Positions 12,630 through 59,133 of a stretch of 64,000 nt of DNA are shown one piece after another. The notes under the pieces are model-generated. The model did no database searches. It saw nothing but the letters and a program-made list of their open reading frames with translations, and was not told the origin of the DNA. The DNA is taken from the NCBI GenBank assembly GCA_945870155.1, contig CAMBSB010000008.1:1-64000 (forward strand), read 5' to 3'. How positions within the stretch are numbered: position 1 is the first letter of the stretch; the number at the start of each line of letters is the position of its first letter. A program made the translations under genes and the position numbers. This DNA is from Paludibacter jiangxiensis (GTDB lineage Bacteria; Bacteroidota; Bacteroidia; Bacteroidales; Paludibacteraceae).

Positions 12630-12780
12630 TTTTTGAATTTAAAATAATCTATGACGAACTTAGGTTTTTAACCGGCAATTTTTTTTAAAGAAAAATAATA
12701 TGTAAATGATAAAAATTTGTTGTTATTTGAAACATTTTGAATTTCAAATGTGTAATTTAACAAATACCTTTCAGATACGG

Positions 12781-31083: not shown

Positions 31084-31172
31084 TTATTCAATTAGAAAAG
31101 GACAAAAGGTATATTAGCAATTGACTATATACTTTCAAAAGACTTGAATTTGCAGGTAAATTTGATAACAGA

Positions 31173-31340
31173 ATTTCGAACTATCGATTTTTGCAAAATA
31201 AAAATCATAATGTTGAGTTAGTAATAACCGAAATGATAAATCAGCGCATTAATTCTATACATGAAAATCCTGTAAGAACTGGATTGGTTTCCTCAGCAGA
31301 AGAGTATTATTTAGTTCATCCAGAAATTACACTGGTCTGA
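31173..31340 (+). pseudogene. Remnant of a REP-associated (RAYT, IS200-like) transposase
   Basis: The frame ending at TGA 31338-31340 reads FLQNKNHNVEL, then INSIHENPVRTGLVSSAEEYY. RAYT transposases end with the pattern NHPVEL...KLDYIHNNPVRAGLV...EDYLYSSA, and this is clearly a degraded copy. The N-terminal half with the catalytic HUH motif is not recognisable upstream, so the gene is dead. RAYTs mobilise REP-like palindromes, and such a family is spread through this window. Confidence 0.7.
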
Positions 31341-51920: not shown

Positions 51921-51963
51921 AATCAGCATACATCCTGCCGAATCTACAGGAATGTTGCTGATT
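51921..51963 (+). terminator. Imperfect hairpin between gene and tandem array
   Basis: AATCAGCATACATCCTG (51921-51937) pairs with CAGGAATGTTGCTGATT (51947-51963). No T run follows, so it may be a terminator of weak type or part of the array structure. Confidence 0.55.
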
Positions 51964-51974
51964 CAGGGCAAAAG

Positions 51975-52163
51975 TATGCGTGATCGCACCAAATCATTGC
52001 GTTCACGCAGCAAATCGGTGCGATAATGCAATAAAATGGTGCGATAACGCAGTAAAACATTGCATGAACGCAGTAAAACGGTACGTCATCGCAGTAAATC
52101 AGTGCGACATCGCAATAAAACAGTGCGTTAACGCAACAAAACAGTACGTAATCACAGTGATTT
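51975..52163. repeat. Tandem array of nine 21-base palindrome-bearing units
   Basis: Nine contiguous 21-base units fit 51975-52163 exactly. Most units have the form GTGCGnnnnCGCAnnAAAAC, so each holds a small palindrome TGCGnnnnCGCA; the units differ mainly in the four loop bases. There are no spacers between units. Because 21 is a multiple of three both strands stay open, giving spurious seven-residue repeat proteins. Confidence 0.9.
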
Positions 52164-54076: not shown

Positions 54077-54123
54077 CCCGAATTATCTTACAAAAGAATG
54101 ATAGTTATATCCCGGAGGACAGG
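54077..54123 (+). repeat. Right-end fragment of the accessory element (copy A)
   Basis: CCCGAATTATCTTACAAAAG ... ATCCCGGAGGACAGG, matching the right end of the complete copies at 55603, 57652 and 58809. It lies 68 bases before a gene start. Confidence 0.8.
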
Positions 54124-54190
54124 CGGAATGAGTAAGATGGGATATTGACGGTTCAATTTGGCGATAACTAACAATTAAATTATAAAAAAC

Positions 54191-54793
54191 ATGAAAAAAA
54201 CAATTTTTATTTTTACTGTTTTCATTCTTATTATGCTTTACGGTAAAGTTTATGCACAGAATTGGAATGATTACTTCTTGCTTCGTACTGGATATATTAT
54301 TCCTGATCCACAAAATTTAAATGGTAAAATGGCATTACAAGTTGAATATGGTAAAACCTATAAGTGGTTAAATGTAGGCATAAGTCTTGATTATAAAAAT
54401 TCATTTTTTGATAAATATGAGTATGGAGGTATCGTAGTCTATAACGACATACCTTTAGCCCGTTTGTTAGTTGGTGACAGCATTAACGAAACAAGTACAG
54501 GATTATCATTACATGCAAGTATTGATTGTATTCGAATATTCTTAAAAAACTCAAAACACTCTTTAAGGATTGGAGCTAAAATTGGTAAGGTTCATAGTTT
54601 GGTAATAAAGCAAGAACAAACAACTAATAATCAGGCATTAAGATATATATCAAATTATAGCACATATTCTGCTTTTGATATTACGTACGATTATGCATTA
54701 AACAAGAATACTCACTTAGGCTTGTTTTATGAGAGTACTGTTTTAAGACCATGTTATGGCTTAACTTTATGCAGAAAATTTAACAGTTATTGA
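54191..54793 (+). CDS. Hypothetical outer-membrane barrel protein between element ends
   Basis: A 200-residue protein with a signal peptide (MKKTIFIFTVFILIMLYGKVYA). Mature strands alternate as in small barrels (LQVEYGKTYKWLNVGISLDYK, HLGLFYESTVLRPCYGL). Not recognised as a family. It lies alone between a right-end copy (54077-54123) and a left-end copy (54835-54886) of the accessory element, like a cassette. Confidence 0.62.
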   Translation: MKKTIFIFTVFILIMLYGKVYAQNWNDYFLLRTGYIIPDPQNLNGKMALQVEYGKTYKWLNVGISLDYKNSFFDKYEYGGIVVYNDIPLARLLVGDSINETSTGLSLHASIDCIRIFLKNSKHSLRIGAKIGKVHSLVIKQEQTTNNQALRYISNYSTYSAFDITYDYALNKNTHLGLFYESTVLRPCYGLTLCRKFNSY

Positions 54794-54834
54794 TGTCTGA
54801 ACTAGGAATAAGCAACTATCCTTGCAGGCATATT

Positions 54835-54886
54835 CCCCTGTCCAACCGCATATGTAATTGATTAAATGTACAAATGGTAGGCGTTG
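54835..54886 (+). repeat. Left-end fragment of the accessory element (copy B)
   Basis: CCCCTGTCCAACCGCATATG, then TAATTGATTAAATGTACAAA and TGGTAGGCGTTG; identical order to the left end of the complete copies. It is directly followed by the next gene's leader. Confidence 0.85.
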
Positions 54887-54912
54887 CTTGTGGTCTTATA
54901 AAAATTTTAATT

Positions 54913-55548
54913 ATGAAAAAAACTATTTTATTATTTGCCATTATTGCTTGTGCAATTACCATTTCGACTTCTGTTTCTGCGCAAAAAGCAGTGAAATCTG
55001 ACTTAATTCCTGAATACAAATTGGGTGTTGGAACATTGCTTTATGGTAACAGTGGTTTTGCGTTTTCAAATGAATTCTCCATTCCGGTTATCAAAGGCTT
55101 TGAATTAGGAACTTACTTTATCTTTGGTTCGACAATGCCTACCGGACGAACTGTAGGTTATTATTTTGACGATGTAAATTCAACAACAACCACAGTTATG
55201 GCAAATTCTGACCTTGAAATATATAATGAACGTTCCATGTATTCAATTAACCTTATGGGTTACTTACGACCATTAGACTTTTTTAAATCAACGGCACTTA
55301 AAAATCATAGTATCAAAATCGGTGGAGGATATGGATTTCATCATCAAACCATAACCGGAATTAAAATAACAAATGGAATTACAAAACTCGAAAGCCTGAA
55401 AGTTGACATTCAAAGTGAATTCACACCTTGTTTTTCGTTGCAATATGAATATTGTATAAAAAATAAATGGATTGTCGGAACTGAATACATTTTATTTAAT
55501 CCGGATGGTTATGGTGCTCTGAATTTATTATTGGGTATTCGACTGTGA
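54913..55548 (+). CDS. Hypothetical outer-membrane barrel protein
   Basis: A 211-residue protein from the ATG at 54913; the frame also opens at 54874 inside the element copy. Signal peptide MKKTILLFAIIACAITISTSVSAQ. Strands such as KLGVGTLLYGNSGFAFSNEFSI and FSLQYEYCIKNKWIVGTEYIL suggest a barrel. Its 5' region is the left end of the accessory element and its 3' side is followed by a complete element after 54 bases. Family unknown. Confidence 0.62.
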   Translation: MKKTILLFAIIACAITISTSVSAQKAVKSDLIPEYKLGVGTLLYGNSGFAFSNEFSIPVIKGFELGTYFIFGSTMPTGRTVGYYFDDVNSTTTTVMANSDLEIYNERSMYSINLMGYLRPLDFFKSTALKNHSIKIGGGYGFHHQTITGIKITNGITKLESLKVDIQSEFTPCFSLQYEYCIKNKWIVGTEYILFNPDGYGALNLLLGIRL

Positions 55549-55602
55549 CTTTGTGAAAGAATTTCTATTTTAAGAAGAATTTGAGAAAGAATGTTTCGTA
55601 AA

Positions 55603-55814
55603 CCCTATACAGCCGCATATGTAATTGATTAAATGTACAAATGGTAGGAGTTGTAATATACCCCGAAAGCTTTCGGGGTTTTAATCCGATAAACAAATTT
55701 AAGATAAGAACGCATTACAAATGCTAAGAATACAAGAGTTGGGATTGCAAATCCCAACAACAGCGTCCCGAATTATCCTACAAAAGAATTAATTTATATC
55801 CGGGAAGACAGGGG
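55603..55814 (+). repeat. Accessory element, complete copy C (212 bases)
   Basis: Left end CCCTATACAGCCGCATATG, right end ATCCGGGAAGACAGGGG; the ends are imperfect inverted repeats of roughly 28 bases. Inside are a hairpin with a T run (CCCCGAAAGCTTTCGGGGTTT) and GTTGGGATTGCAAATCCCAAC. The Rhs fragment reading frame runs through its right end. Confidence 0.85.
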
Positions 55815-55817
55815 AAT

Positions 55818-57092
55818 GTGCGACAAATCCATTATCTTAGCGGTGCCATTCTGATAAAGGAAAGCAACAAGCCCGATAAGCTATATTACGCGTATTCCGA
55901 TTTTCAGGGTTCGTTATTAGCGCTTACCGATAAAAATGGCGTAGTAGCCGAACGCTATGCTTATGACCCTTGGGGAGCAAGACGCAACCCCAATAACTGG
56001 ACTGAAAAAGACAGCCGTACTTCGTGGTTAGTTAACCGAGGTTACACAGGGCATGAACATTTGGATGCCTTTGGAATAATTAACATGAACGGGCGCGTTT
56101 ATGATCCACTAACGGCAATGTTCTATTCACCAGACCCAGCAATAGATGGTTATAATTGGTTATCATACAACCGGTACGGATACTGTATAGGCAATCCGTT
56201 TAAGTATACCGATCCGAGTGGTAATAACCCTTTTGTAATTGTTGGTTTAGCACTTCTAGGTGGTTATTTGGGTGGCGTTTCAACAAATCATGGTGAGTTG
56301 AATCCGTGGGAATGGGACTGGAAAAATCCTGGAACTTATTTTGGCATAGGTTTTGGCTTGTTTGCAGGTTATACCGGTGGATATTGGTTATTTAACCCGG
56401 GGGCTTTAAGTGTTGGTTTTGGACTTTCTGTTAATAGTCAATGGGGTAGTTTAGCAATCGGAGTTGGCGGTATTACATCAACTGGAGTTAGTTCTGATTT
56501 TAATTTTAACTGGACAACTTCGGCAGGTGGAGGTGGGCAGTTTAAATTCTTTGATAATAGCTCATCTAAAACACTTAGTTCAAATCATATTAGTGAAAAT
56601 CTTAATCAAAAACACTTTGAAAATAATTATAATAATTATATAAACCAACAATTATCAAATTTTTCTAATATGGATACCTATTTCGATGGAGCATCATTAG
56701 GCTTTGAATTGAATCAAATGGCATTGTCACCTTATATATCTAAAATGGATGAGTTTACGCAATTCGGTAATTTCTATAAGAATTTAGGTGGCGCTTCAAA
56801 AGCATTTGGAGCATTAGGTACGGTTGCAGGTGGTGTTGGAATTTCTGTTGAATATTATTCGATGAAAAAAAATGATATGTCAACAACACGTTTTGGTTAT
56901 CACGCAGCTAGTTTTGCAATATCAGTTGGTGTAGGTAGTTTATATGGTGGAATACCAGGTGCAGCAGCTGGTGGTCTCTTTTGGGGAGGAGAGGTAATGT
57001 ACGATCATATAATTGTGCCAGGAAAAGATATGTACTGGCAACTAGAATATAGTTTACGTACATTCCATGAACGATTAAAGTATCCTTGGTAA
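55818..57092 (+). pseudogene. Rhs repeat core C-terminal fragment (orphan tip) with variable domain
   Basis: A 424-residue open frame starting at GTG 55818. The first 130 residues are the end of an Rhs core: YYAYSDFQGSLLALTDKNG, RYAYDPWGARRNP, NRGYTGHEHLDAFGIINMNGRVYDP, SPDPAIDGYNWLSYNRYGYC and NPFKYTDPSG. The rest is a Gly-rich variable C-terminal domain I cannot assign, ending in WQLEYSLRTFHERLKYPW. The large N-terminal Rhs shell is missing. The frame is open back to about 55728, through the right end of the accessory element, so it looks like a displaced tip, possibly a silent cassette. No ATG start exists. Confidence 0.82.
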
Positions 57093-57114
57093 ATTTATTT
57101 GTAAAAGAAAGAAT

Positions 57115-57618
57115 ATGAATACTATTTTAAAAATAACAGCAATGAGGCAGTTTAAAGCCTTGTCTTATTTTCTTTTTTATCTTTTTGCTATTACGATTGC
57201 ATATTTTTATACAATAAATCTCGATGAAGCATTTTATGTAATTTTTGGTCCATTATCATTTTTTTTAGTTTTTCCCACTTTATTTCTGCATTTCGAATAC
57301 ATTTATAGAAATAAAAAAGAAGAATATGAACTATGTGGGGATAAAATAATAAGGCGCAAAGAAAACAATGTGTCATTTTATAATAAGGAGGATATAAAAA
57401 AAGTTGAAATATATGTAAGTCCAAATTATTTTAGTAACGATTTGTATTTCACAGCTTATGCAAATTATCATTTTGCAAAAGTGTATTTAGTATCCGGTGA
57501 GATTTTGTATATCACAAGTTTACTTGCACCCGGGGGGATAGATAAAGCATTTAGTTTATACCTTAAAGAGATTCCTTATCGCAGAATAAAACGGTTATTT
57601 GCCACAACCTTGTATTAA
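57115..57618 (+). CDS. Two-helix membrane protein, candidate partner or immunity protein
   Basis: A 167-residue protein with two membrane helices (about 15-35 and 40-62) and a cytoplasmic C-terminal part resembling a small PH-like fold (YELCGDKIIRRKENNVSFYNKEDIKKVEIYV). It starts 22 bases after the Rhs tip and reads in the same direction. In Rhs systems the next small gene normally encodes the immunity protein for the tip; that is the inference here, without sequence proof. Confidence 0.68.
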   Translation: MNTILKITAMRQFKALSYFLFYLFAITIAYFYTINLDEAFYVIFGPLSFFLVFPTLFLHFEYIYRNKKEEYELCGDKIIRRKENNVSFYNKEDIKKVEIYVSPNYFSNDLYFTAYANYHFAKVYLVSGEILYITSLLAPGGIDKAFSLYLKEIPYRRIKRLFATTLY

Positions 57619-57651
57619 CTTTGTTGATTATCAATTATCTATCTTAGAATG

Positions 57652-57993
57652 CCCTGTACAGCCGCTTATGTAATTGATTAAATGTACAAATGGTGGGAGT
57701 TGCTCGTGGGTGGGATTTTCTTTTTTAATCCCACCCGTTGTACTATAAGGACCTACCTACCGTAGGCAGGTTTTTAATCCGATAAACAAATTTGTTATAA
57801 GAACGCATTACAATCCAGATAACTTTCGGGAAAGAATACAAGAGTTGGGATTGACTACGTCGATTTTTAATTATTGGCAAGCCAAGCGGCAGAGCCGAGC
57901 GGGAAATAATTAGCTACGCTGACCGTTGGTTCCCAACAACAACGCCCCGAAATATCCTACAAAAGAATGAATTTATATCCGGGAGGACAGGGG
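57652..57993 (+). repeat. Accessory element, complete copy D (342 bases)
   Basis: Left end CCCTGTACAGCCGCTTATG, right end ATCCGGGAGGACAGGGG. The inner hairpin is CCTACCTACCGTAGGCAGG followed by T's, so structure is kept while sequence differs from copy C. An extra GGCAAGCCAAGCGGCAGAGC module lies inside. The remaining bases to 58121 hold no gene. Confidence 0.85.
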
Positions 57994-58121
57994 AAAAAGG
58001 CGTAAAACCAATCCATTTTATTTAGATTAGAGAGAAAATTGGCTTAAAAACCCTAAATAATATTTTAAAAAATGAATGAGAAATGAGAAAGATTGTAAAT
58101 GTAAATATTTTAATATGTAAA

Positions 58122-58808
58122 ATGAAACAATTTAATCTAAGTCGGGTTTTTATTACATTAATCGTTTTGATATTTAATATTAATGTTTTGTTTGGTCAAG
58201 AAATTCAGTTCACATGGAATATTTTACCCTCAATAGGTAAAATCGATGGAGTGATAATTGAAAAAAAAGGGACTCAAAGTTATTTGCGGATTAAAAATAA
58301 CAAAAAATATAAATCATTTAGCAAGAAAATTCAAAAAAAAGATTTTGATAATTTGATTGTTTTCTTAGACAATTATGAATTTCCTAATAAAGTAGATAAT
58401 TTGATTTGTGATACCATACGTATTTATTACGATACAAAATTTCTTCCAGATTCAAACTGGGTTTATGTAAATGAGGACTCACTTTTAATAAATCAATTAC
58501 CTCTCACTAAACGAAATTATTATTATGAATTTGATAAAAATCTAAAAAAATGTTACAGTGAGTTTGTGAAAAGTAAAGTGTTTACGGGGGGCACTAATTT
58601 TAAAGGTGAATATACGAAATTAAATTTAACTAAGCATTACAATATTTATAGTGCAAAACTCGATGTAAATGATTACAAATTGAATTTGATTATCTTATAT
58701 TTAGTTAGAAAATATTTAAGAAAAGCAGATTCTACTTTATTGGAAAAGTTAATAGTAAACAGTATTACACCCAAACTACAAGAGTCTATAAAGACGCAAC
58801 CCCAATAA
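58122..58808 (+). CDS. Hypothetical secreted protein
   Basis: A 228-residue protein from the ATG at 58122, where a signal peptide begins (VFITLIVLIFNINVLFGQ); an ATG at 58083 is also in frame. The mature part is polar and Lys/Tyr/Asn-rich, with a central FTWNILPSIGKIDGV and TRIYYDTKFLPD-like IRIYYDTKFLPDS. Family unknown. The stop at 58808 is directly followed by the left end of element copy E, and copy D lies upstream, so it sits as a cassette between two copies. Confidence 0.65.
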   Translation: MKQFNLSRVFITLIVLIFNINVLFGQEIQFTWNILPSIGKIDGVIIEKKGTQSYLRIKNNKKYKSFSKKIQKKDFDNLIVFLDNYEFPNKVDNLICDTIRIYYDTKFLPDSNWVYVNEDSLLINQLPLTKRNYYYEFDKNLKKCYSEFVKSKVFTGGTNFKGEYTKLNLTKHYNIYSAKLDVNDYKLNLIILYLVRKYLRKADSTLLEKLIVNSITPKLQESIKTQPQ

Positions 58809-59133
58809 CCCCTGTCCAGCCGCATATGTAATTGATTAAAAGTATAAATGGTAGGCGTTATACTATACCCCGAAAGCTTTCGGGGTTTTATTTCGATAAA
58901 GAAATTTGTTATAAAAAGGCATTACAATCCCGATAAATTCGGGAAAGAATACACAAGTTGGGATTGACTACGTCGATTTTCAATTATCTCCCGTTGGTCG
59001 CTGACCGTTGGTTCTTGGCAAGCCAAGCAGCAGAGCCGAGCAGGAAATAATTAGCTACGCTGACCTTTGGGTCCCAACAACAGCGTCCCGAATTATCCTA
59101 CAAAAGAATGAATTTTTATCCGGGATGACAGGG
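58809..59133 (+). repeat. Accessory element, complete copy E (325 bases)
   Basis: Left end CCCCTGTCCAGCCGCATAT, right end ATCCGGGATGACAGGG. Contains the CCCCGAAAGCTTTCGGGG hairpin plus the inserted module shared with copy D, with an extra GTTGGTCGCTGACCGTTGG. It starts on the base after a gene's stop codon. Confidence 0.85.

Follow-up and report, generated by a model that had tools for sequence, protein, structure and literature searches.

Gene-less RAYT-type elements adjoin Rhs toxin gene tail ends in Paludibacter and may help to shuffle toxin–immunity cassettes

Introduction

The section of PMC6006769 on subclass 2.6 of the TnpA_REP transposases equates it with Bertels group 5 of the RAYTs (REP-associated tyrosine transposases; REP, repetitive extragenic palindromic) and describes its Bacteroidetes genes as flanked by "atypical secondary structures". 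REPIN/BIME are inverted REP doublets linked to RAYTs (PMC3116915, PMC8266576). Here we report on 64,000 nucleotides (nt) of Paludibacter jiangxiensis DNA (the window; bases 1-64000 of contig C8 in an assembly of 5.79 Mb, 339 contigs, 97.9% complete), in which a dispersed element with inverted ends separates orphan genes, one of them the tail end of an Rhs toxin gene. Changes of position of polymorphic toxin tips and immunity genes are usually explained by homologous recombination within the conserved core. In related genomes the tail ends of Rhs toxin genes follow the element with a codon-exact joint, and this suggests that it helps to shuffle toxin–immunity cassettes. A right end that is codon-exact on Rhs interiors, together with copies that bracket tip–immunity pairs, gives a concrete and testable vehicle for tip movement. 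The association of a RAYT element with Rhs was unexpected. A literature search, with subscription papers and preprints outside its range, returned no paper containing both RAYT and Rhs as whole words and, among the papers listed, no title or abstract start naming such a link.

Results and discussion

Related genomes carry a RAYT gene between the same ends

The genus searches covered 42 to 48 Paludibacter genomes (G numbers below; contigs given without a genome number are from our own assembly). In G021, both ends of the element enclose an open reading frame (ORF) of 180 amino acids (aa) that matches the REP-associated tyrosine (HUH) transposase model NF047646 at 94.9 bits (cut-off 80) and stays below the cut-off of the IS200 model NF033573 (26.5 bits, cut-off 55). 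Its motifs NHMH, FWQ and YIHQNP correspond to the subclass 2.6 pattern NH[LIV]H, WQ and YIH[QN]NP, with M replacing L/I/V. Profiles recognised ends on both sides of a RAYT gene in G021, G006, G008 and G062, and by eye the gene lies between the same kinds of ends in G017 and G024; only the right end was recognised around both G004 copies and one G008 copy. The layout of the full element is a left arm, hairpins, a gene for an HUH/Y1 transposase of ~180 aa, mirrored hairpins and a right arm; of these parts, the window copies retain the arms and hairpins alone, as in a REPIN, where two inverted REP structures make up a single hairpin.

Judged by their alignments, these full elements behave as units, since the long alignment of one copy with another breaks off where the element ends. 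Specifically, the G004 copies share 91.5% identity over 811 bp, in an alignment that ends at the right end in both and with different genes beyond; G062 aligns with G021 from left end to right end (74.8% over 825 bp), and the G008 copies are 84% identical over 813 bp. Gene-less copies of only 131 nt occur in G030, and in our own assembly remnants of the RAYT start can be made out by eye inside copies on C1 and C176. Because the same ends enclose a RAYT gene in relatives and C1 and C176 hold such remnants, the window copies are, by homology, gene-less derivatives of a RAYT transposon, REPIN-like but much larger. A first reading of the window from its letters and ORFs (the sequence-only reading) had considered a non-autonomous transposon family, and the transposase gene of the relatives and the homology that stops at the element ends bear this out. 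A PDB sequence search with the RAYT gave no match.

Further RAYT sequences were seen in passing. A gene remnant at window positions 31128-31307 (+) is 42% identical to the G021 protein along a stretch of 60 aa, and no element ends were recognised in window 1-50000. The second RAYT clade of the genus (loci L204, L205, L185 and L188) is flanked by a different palindrome, of the CCCCTCGTTACAAACGAGGGG type, and has a mild link to Rhs as well (counts below). In G030:C94 (L139, reverse complement) the left end of the element comes immediately after the opening 37 codons of a RAYT gene, so that one copy seems to have inserted into another.

The element is joined to Rhs genes to the codon

At nine right ends that adjoin an Rhs frame, the codons immediately following the element were set against other Rhs genes; the right end–Rhs pair of G019:C18 could not be judged and was left out of the count. 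Homology starts from codon 1 in eight of the nine (window copy C, own C1, G030:C94, G062, G023:C84, G008:C234, G008:C49 and G023:C146), and at these exact joints the compared genes extend upstream, as Rhs in most rows shown. No homologue was found for the joint of G004:C77. The entry points vary along the Rhs gene, though at window copy C, own C1 and G030:C94 they are no more than some 40 codons apart.

The 3 kb upstream of the element could be searched at seven of the nine joints, G030:C94 and G023:C146 having too little sequence; on own C1, where the left end was not recognised, the search started in front of the remnant. No Rhs homology was found in these 3 kb at window copy C, own C1, G062, G008:C234 and G004:C77, so that four of the six searchable exact joints have no Rhs sequence within 3 kb upstream. 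Because the joints are codon-exact and the upstream Rhs part is missing at several of them, it looks as if the joint was made by the element inside an Rhs gene and the left flank was exchanged afterwards.

Counts from both sides tie the element to Rhs

An Rhs core was found within 4 kb of the RAYT clade of this element at 8 of 25 places, fragments included (0.17 expected), compared with 3 of 35 places for the second RAYT clade (0.26 expected) and 0 of 61 for IS200-type genes (0.35 expected). The three sets stem from overlapping but non-identical genome sets, the RAYT matches having been split into two clades by hand on identity and the IS200-type genes being the genus matches from about 49 bits. 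RAYT and Rhs core were on the same strand in all 11 nearby pairs. In an overlapping set of named genomes, 10 of the 20 RAYT loci at the head of the list had Rhs homology in the flanks examined, as had 3 of the other 60, with the nearest Rhs match on the same strand at each of these 13 loci.

Seen from the Rhs side, a right end lies near the 5' end of the Rhs frame (from 500 nt before to 450 nt after the open-frame start) in 11 of 96 cores, namely in 7/41 short, 4/43 long and 0/12 contig-edge frames; the 96 remain from 113 Rhs matches after 17 weak ones had been dropped beforehand. Our own genome has three Rhs cores, two of which (C8:55962-56222 and C1:47161-47430) stand directly after right ends. 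The link between the element and Rhs genes is real. The sequence-only reading had also considered a recombination site that moves Rhs tips; the Rhs part of that proposal holds, and movement itself was not directly seen.

Copies are dispersed through the genome and follow genes

A DNA search yielded 67 matching pieces in our own genome. End profiles recognised 17 left and 25 right ends, the right ends on 15 contigs (C1, C3, C6, C8, C12, C16, C32, C59, C72, C75, C105, C124, C140, C169 and C176); most of these copies had gone into building the profiles. Profiles made from the window ends alone had matches with E-values of at most 3e-4 on 13 further contigs (near 1e-18 for the best left ends and 1e-21 for the best right ends), on stretches that had been picked beforehand by DNA similarity search. 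These matches are far beyond chance. In control stretches, element ends were absent from 34 kb of second-clade loci and from 66 kb of C8 outside the array, and were present in 2/19 IS200 loci, one of these being the C16 copy already known.

A same-strand gene lies upstream of 17 of 18 own left ends, and in 14 of the 18 the left end is at most 60 nt from the stop of a co-directional gene (the values for intergenic positions drawn at random from these loci are 0.50 and 0.099, respectively). Downstream of own right ends, a same-strand gene was present in 17 of 22. The wider search with the copies that the sequence-only reading had proposed thus found the ends conserved in related genomes and the copies associated with Rhs and with the 3' ends of genes, not scattered at random.

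Several own copies also lie beside or near defence genes. The C3 copy (L040) has a TIR protein and an LmuB-like ATPase as neighbours, type II restriction enzymes are near the copies on C72 (L039) and C59 (L038), and a type IIG restriction-modification gene is near that on C124 (L032). In the reverse complement of L038, at about 12640-12720, the left end CCCTGTCCTAGTGGAT by eye directly follows an apparent complement of a tRNA 3' half. On C169 (L033, 8196-9255) two adjoining lipoprotein-like genes of 173 and 177 aa stand upstream of the element; their first 30 residues are identical, as in a duplicated immunity gene.

Structure of the window copies

All three complete copies and both end fragments of the window (Table 1) have the same orientation, as noticed in the sequence-only reading; each complete copy is one base shorter than the 212, 342 and 325 bases given there, and the gene thought to stop on the base before copy E does nearly abut it, with one base between. 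The outer parts form the long imperfect inverted repeats that had been recognised at the ends, with the limits CCTGTCC...GGACAGG, and the interior consists of nested palindromes that vary in sequence from copy to copy. In copy C, ~50 bases at either side take part in the predicted outer stem, inside which there are three to four hairpins; as RNA (+ strand), the copy is predicted to fold into a single long stem that branches at its top (-54.3 kcal/mol, z -4.3). T runs follow several internal hairpins by eye, where all had been said to end in them. By eye no target duplication was seen at the copies printed with flanks, again in agreement with the first reading; the TTA at both sides of the C16 copy may be chance.

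Table 1 Features of the window that belong to the element array.
Feature	Position	Strand	Evidence or remark
Right-end fragment A	54077-54124	+	end-profile match 55.6 bits; second right-end profile E 9.8e-11
Single gene, 200 aa, between fragments A and B	54191..54793	+	ORF
Left-end fragment B	54836-54889	+	end-profile match 67.8 bits; 42 nt after stop of 200-aa gene
Single gene, 224 aa, between B and C	54874..55548	+	ORF
Element C, complete, gene-less	55603-55813 (211 nt)	+	predicted outer stem and internal hairpins, profile match
Palindrome inside element C	55660-55679, then TTT	+	sequence
Orphan Rhs C-terminal fragment and toxin tip	55818..57092, core 55962-56222	+	TIGR03696, 52.8 bits
Putative cognate immunity gene, 167 aa	57115..57618	+	homology and position
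Element D, complete, gene-less	57652-57992 (341 nt)	+	33 nt after immunity gene stop
Single gene, 241 aa, between D and E	58083..58808	+	ORF
Element E, complete, gene-less	58810-59133 (324 nt)	+	one base after stop codon

Both strands were folded and compensatory changes looked for, as the first reading had advised. The strands fold about equally well, the + strand having the lower z in 15 of 23 elements (those of up to 400 nt among 31 cut-out elements), and a joint cross-species alignment of the arms yielded no consensus pairs. In an arm-swap test, 238 of 5000 permutations were as good (native mean -42.7 vs cross-species -41.1). Among own copies, the nearest neighbours of the left, middle and right parts differ for several copies, a mosaic pattern that may hint at exchange.

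For the 224-aa gene, the in-frame ATG at 54913 is a likelier start than 54874. A Pfam search with the 241-aa gene gave no family at E 1 or below. Apart from the array, the window has a tandem repeat of a 21-nt unit at 51949-52158, part of which matches an Rfam miRNA family below the gathering level, probably by chance.

Copies bracket tip–immunity cassettes

Copies C and D bracket the Rhs tip and the 167-aa gene. The tip does read out of copy C, as had been noticed (TIGR03696, E 4e-14), and the Rhs homology of its ORF begins at the right end of the copy. In G004:C9, the tip of a full-length Rhs has a related end (33% identity to residues 153-285 of the window tip), and the next gene downstream of that Rhs has 31% identity to the 167-aa gene (E 2e-25). 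Since this homologue directly follows an Rhs with a matching tip end, the 167-aa gene is, by homology and position, the cognate immunity gene. The window thus has an Rhs core fragment and tip, followed by an immunity gene, the composition of an orphan tip–immunity module (TIGR03696; G004:C9 homologues). For the other part of the tip, the closest relative is an orphan Rhs frame in G005 (56% over 144 residues).

The layout of the window is repeated in G008:C49, where a full Rhs and a small gene are followed by the element, an Rhs tip, a 146-aa gene and a left end. On own C75, an Ntox21 gene (E 4e-20) and a 178-aa gene stand ahead of a copy as an element-bracketed cassette. In relatives, NlpC/P60 and DUF6973 domains are among those encoded just behind right ends. 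YceI, the neighbour used to look for an empty site, is present in 13 of 48 genomes, including our own, and no other window gene was found in the examined flanks of 13 foreign YceI loci.

Proposed mechanism and alternatives

On balance, we favour as probable that the window copies are miniature RAYT-transposon copies and that element-mediated rearrangement makes the tip–immunity cassettes. From what is known of its enzyme family, the RAYT would cut single-stranded DNA at the folded ends, and such movement, which we infer for the elements, would leave no target duplication. Elements would have entered Rhs genes at several different positions, leaving codon-exact right-end joints. Element-to-element events may then have split the 3' part (tip and immunity gene) from the Rhs body, either because the transposase moved everything between one copy's left end and the following copy's right end, or because copies on the same strand recombined by homology. 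The outcome would be element-gene-element cassettes such as window C-D, with the tips as passengers. More tentatively, the RAYT family could be the very vehicle that excises Rhs tips and immunity genes and spreads element-gene-element cassettes, an integron-like shuffling by an HUH transposase; if so, RAYT genes themselves would transpose as units.

Several results weigh against rearrangement by the element. Just 2 of the 25 own right ends abut an Rhs core. Among the joints, that of G062 depends on a second, weak right end (17.5 bits), two alignments run beyond the joint in G023:C84, the end of a further Rhs gene lies some 2.3 kb upstream in both G008:C49 and G023:C84, and the right end–Rhs pairs of G007 (+290 nt) and G008:C375 (+996 nt) are not exact. 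The compared loci of G004, G062, G021 and G008 share further Rhs or repeat matches outside the element, at differing distances. No intact member of this RAYT clade is present in our own assembly; the two RAYT genes found there (C46 and C307; 50 and 47% identity) belong to another clade and have different palindrome flanks. Co-evolution of the arms is weak by the arm-swap test. Apart from the Rhs tip, the window genes between copies have no Pfam or NCBIfam family match, and the orphan Rhs of G005 has no element end in the flanks examined. In no case was the same cassette observed both in its old and in its new place. Of the cassette arrangement that the sequence-only reading had wished to check, different genes between copies were found and an empty site for a whole cassette was not.

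It is possible, if rather doubtful, that the copies are a plain miniature transposon with no gene-moving role, present as single insertions just after stops, where they do least harm, with dispensable orphan-tip regions collecting copies. The position of own left ends close behind co-directional stops would be consistent with this, as would the general finding that REP elements are mostly intergenic, given in the part of PMC8266576 that deals with their position. In the same direction, and against a role in moving tips, the 5' end of the frame lacks a right end in 85 of the 96 Rhs cores of the genus. However, codon-exact joints inside Rhs at varied positions, four of them with no Rhs within the 3 kb upstream, need more than insertion, and IS200-type elements of the same genus have no Rhs link.

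Rearrangement by the element also has to be set against a role at the RNA level, in which the copies would be terminators or structured 3' untranslated regions that move along with genes and are retained for their function at transcript ends. The copies do sit after stops in transcript orientation, with T-run hairpins and strong folding, but the near-equal folding of both strands and the transposase gene inside the same ends in relatives make this very unlikely; in Rfam, too, nothing matched the element at E-values up to 1, and the two matches of that search lie outside the elements. Integron-like cassette sites (attC analogues) served by a site-specific integrase would fit single genes followed by same-strand sites and arrays ending in convergent genes, but they are highly improbable given the dispersal of the copies over 15 contigs and the family's own transposase. 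A TIGR02249 integrase over the cut-off was found in 0/1 genome, our own, where the incomplete assembly makes a gap possible.

Comparison with known systems

Same-strand sites after genes are shared with integron attC arrays, from which the Paludibacter element differs in its dispersed copies and in having no integrase over the cut-off; its size and ends also differ from those of attC. With IS200/IS605 it has in common HUH Y1 chemistry by homology, folded ends and no clear target duplication. It is set apart by a RAYT that scores below the IS200 cut-off, by long inverted arms and by the Rhs link, which is absent in IS200-type genes. Compared with REPINs (PMC3116915, PMC8266576), the copies are likewise gene-less inverted doublets, predicted to form one long hairpin, intergenic in position and with a transposase of the same family, found in relatives. 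They differ in size (about 130-360 nt, vs doublets of short REPs of 20-50 nt), in arms of about 60 nt and in having several palindromes inside. Short REPs with a GTAG tag were not noticed, no search aimed at such REPs having been made. The element resembles TnpA_REP subclass 2.6, so far as the section of PMC6006769 on that subclass describes it, in its transposase family and motifs, in its Bacteroidetes host (Paludibacter) and in flanking structures with copies elsewhere in the genome (the own ends counted above and the RAYT versions in relatives). The Paludibacter element is, in addition, tied to Rhs genes, of which the same section makes no mention.

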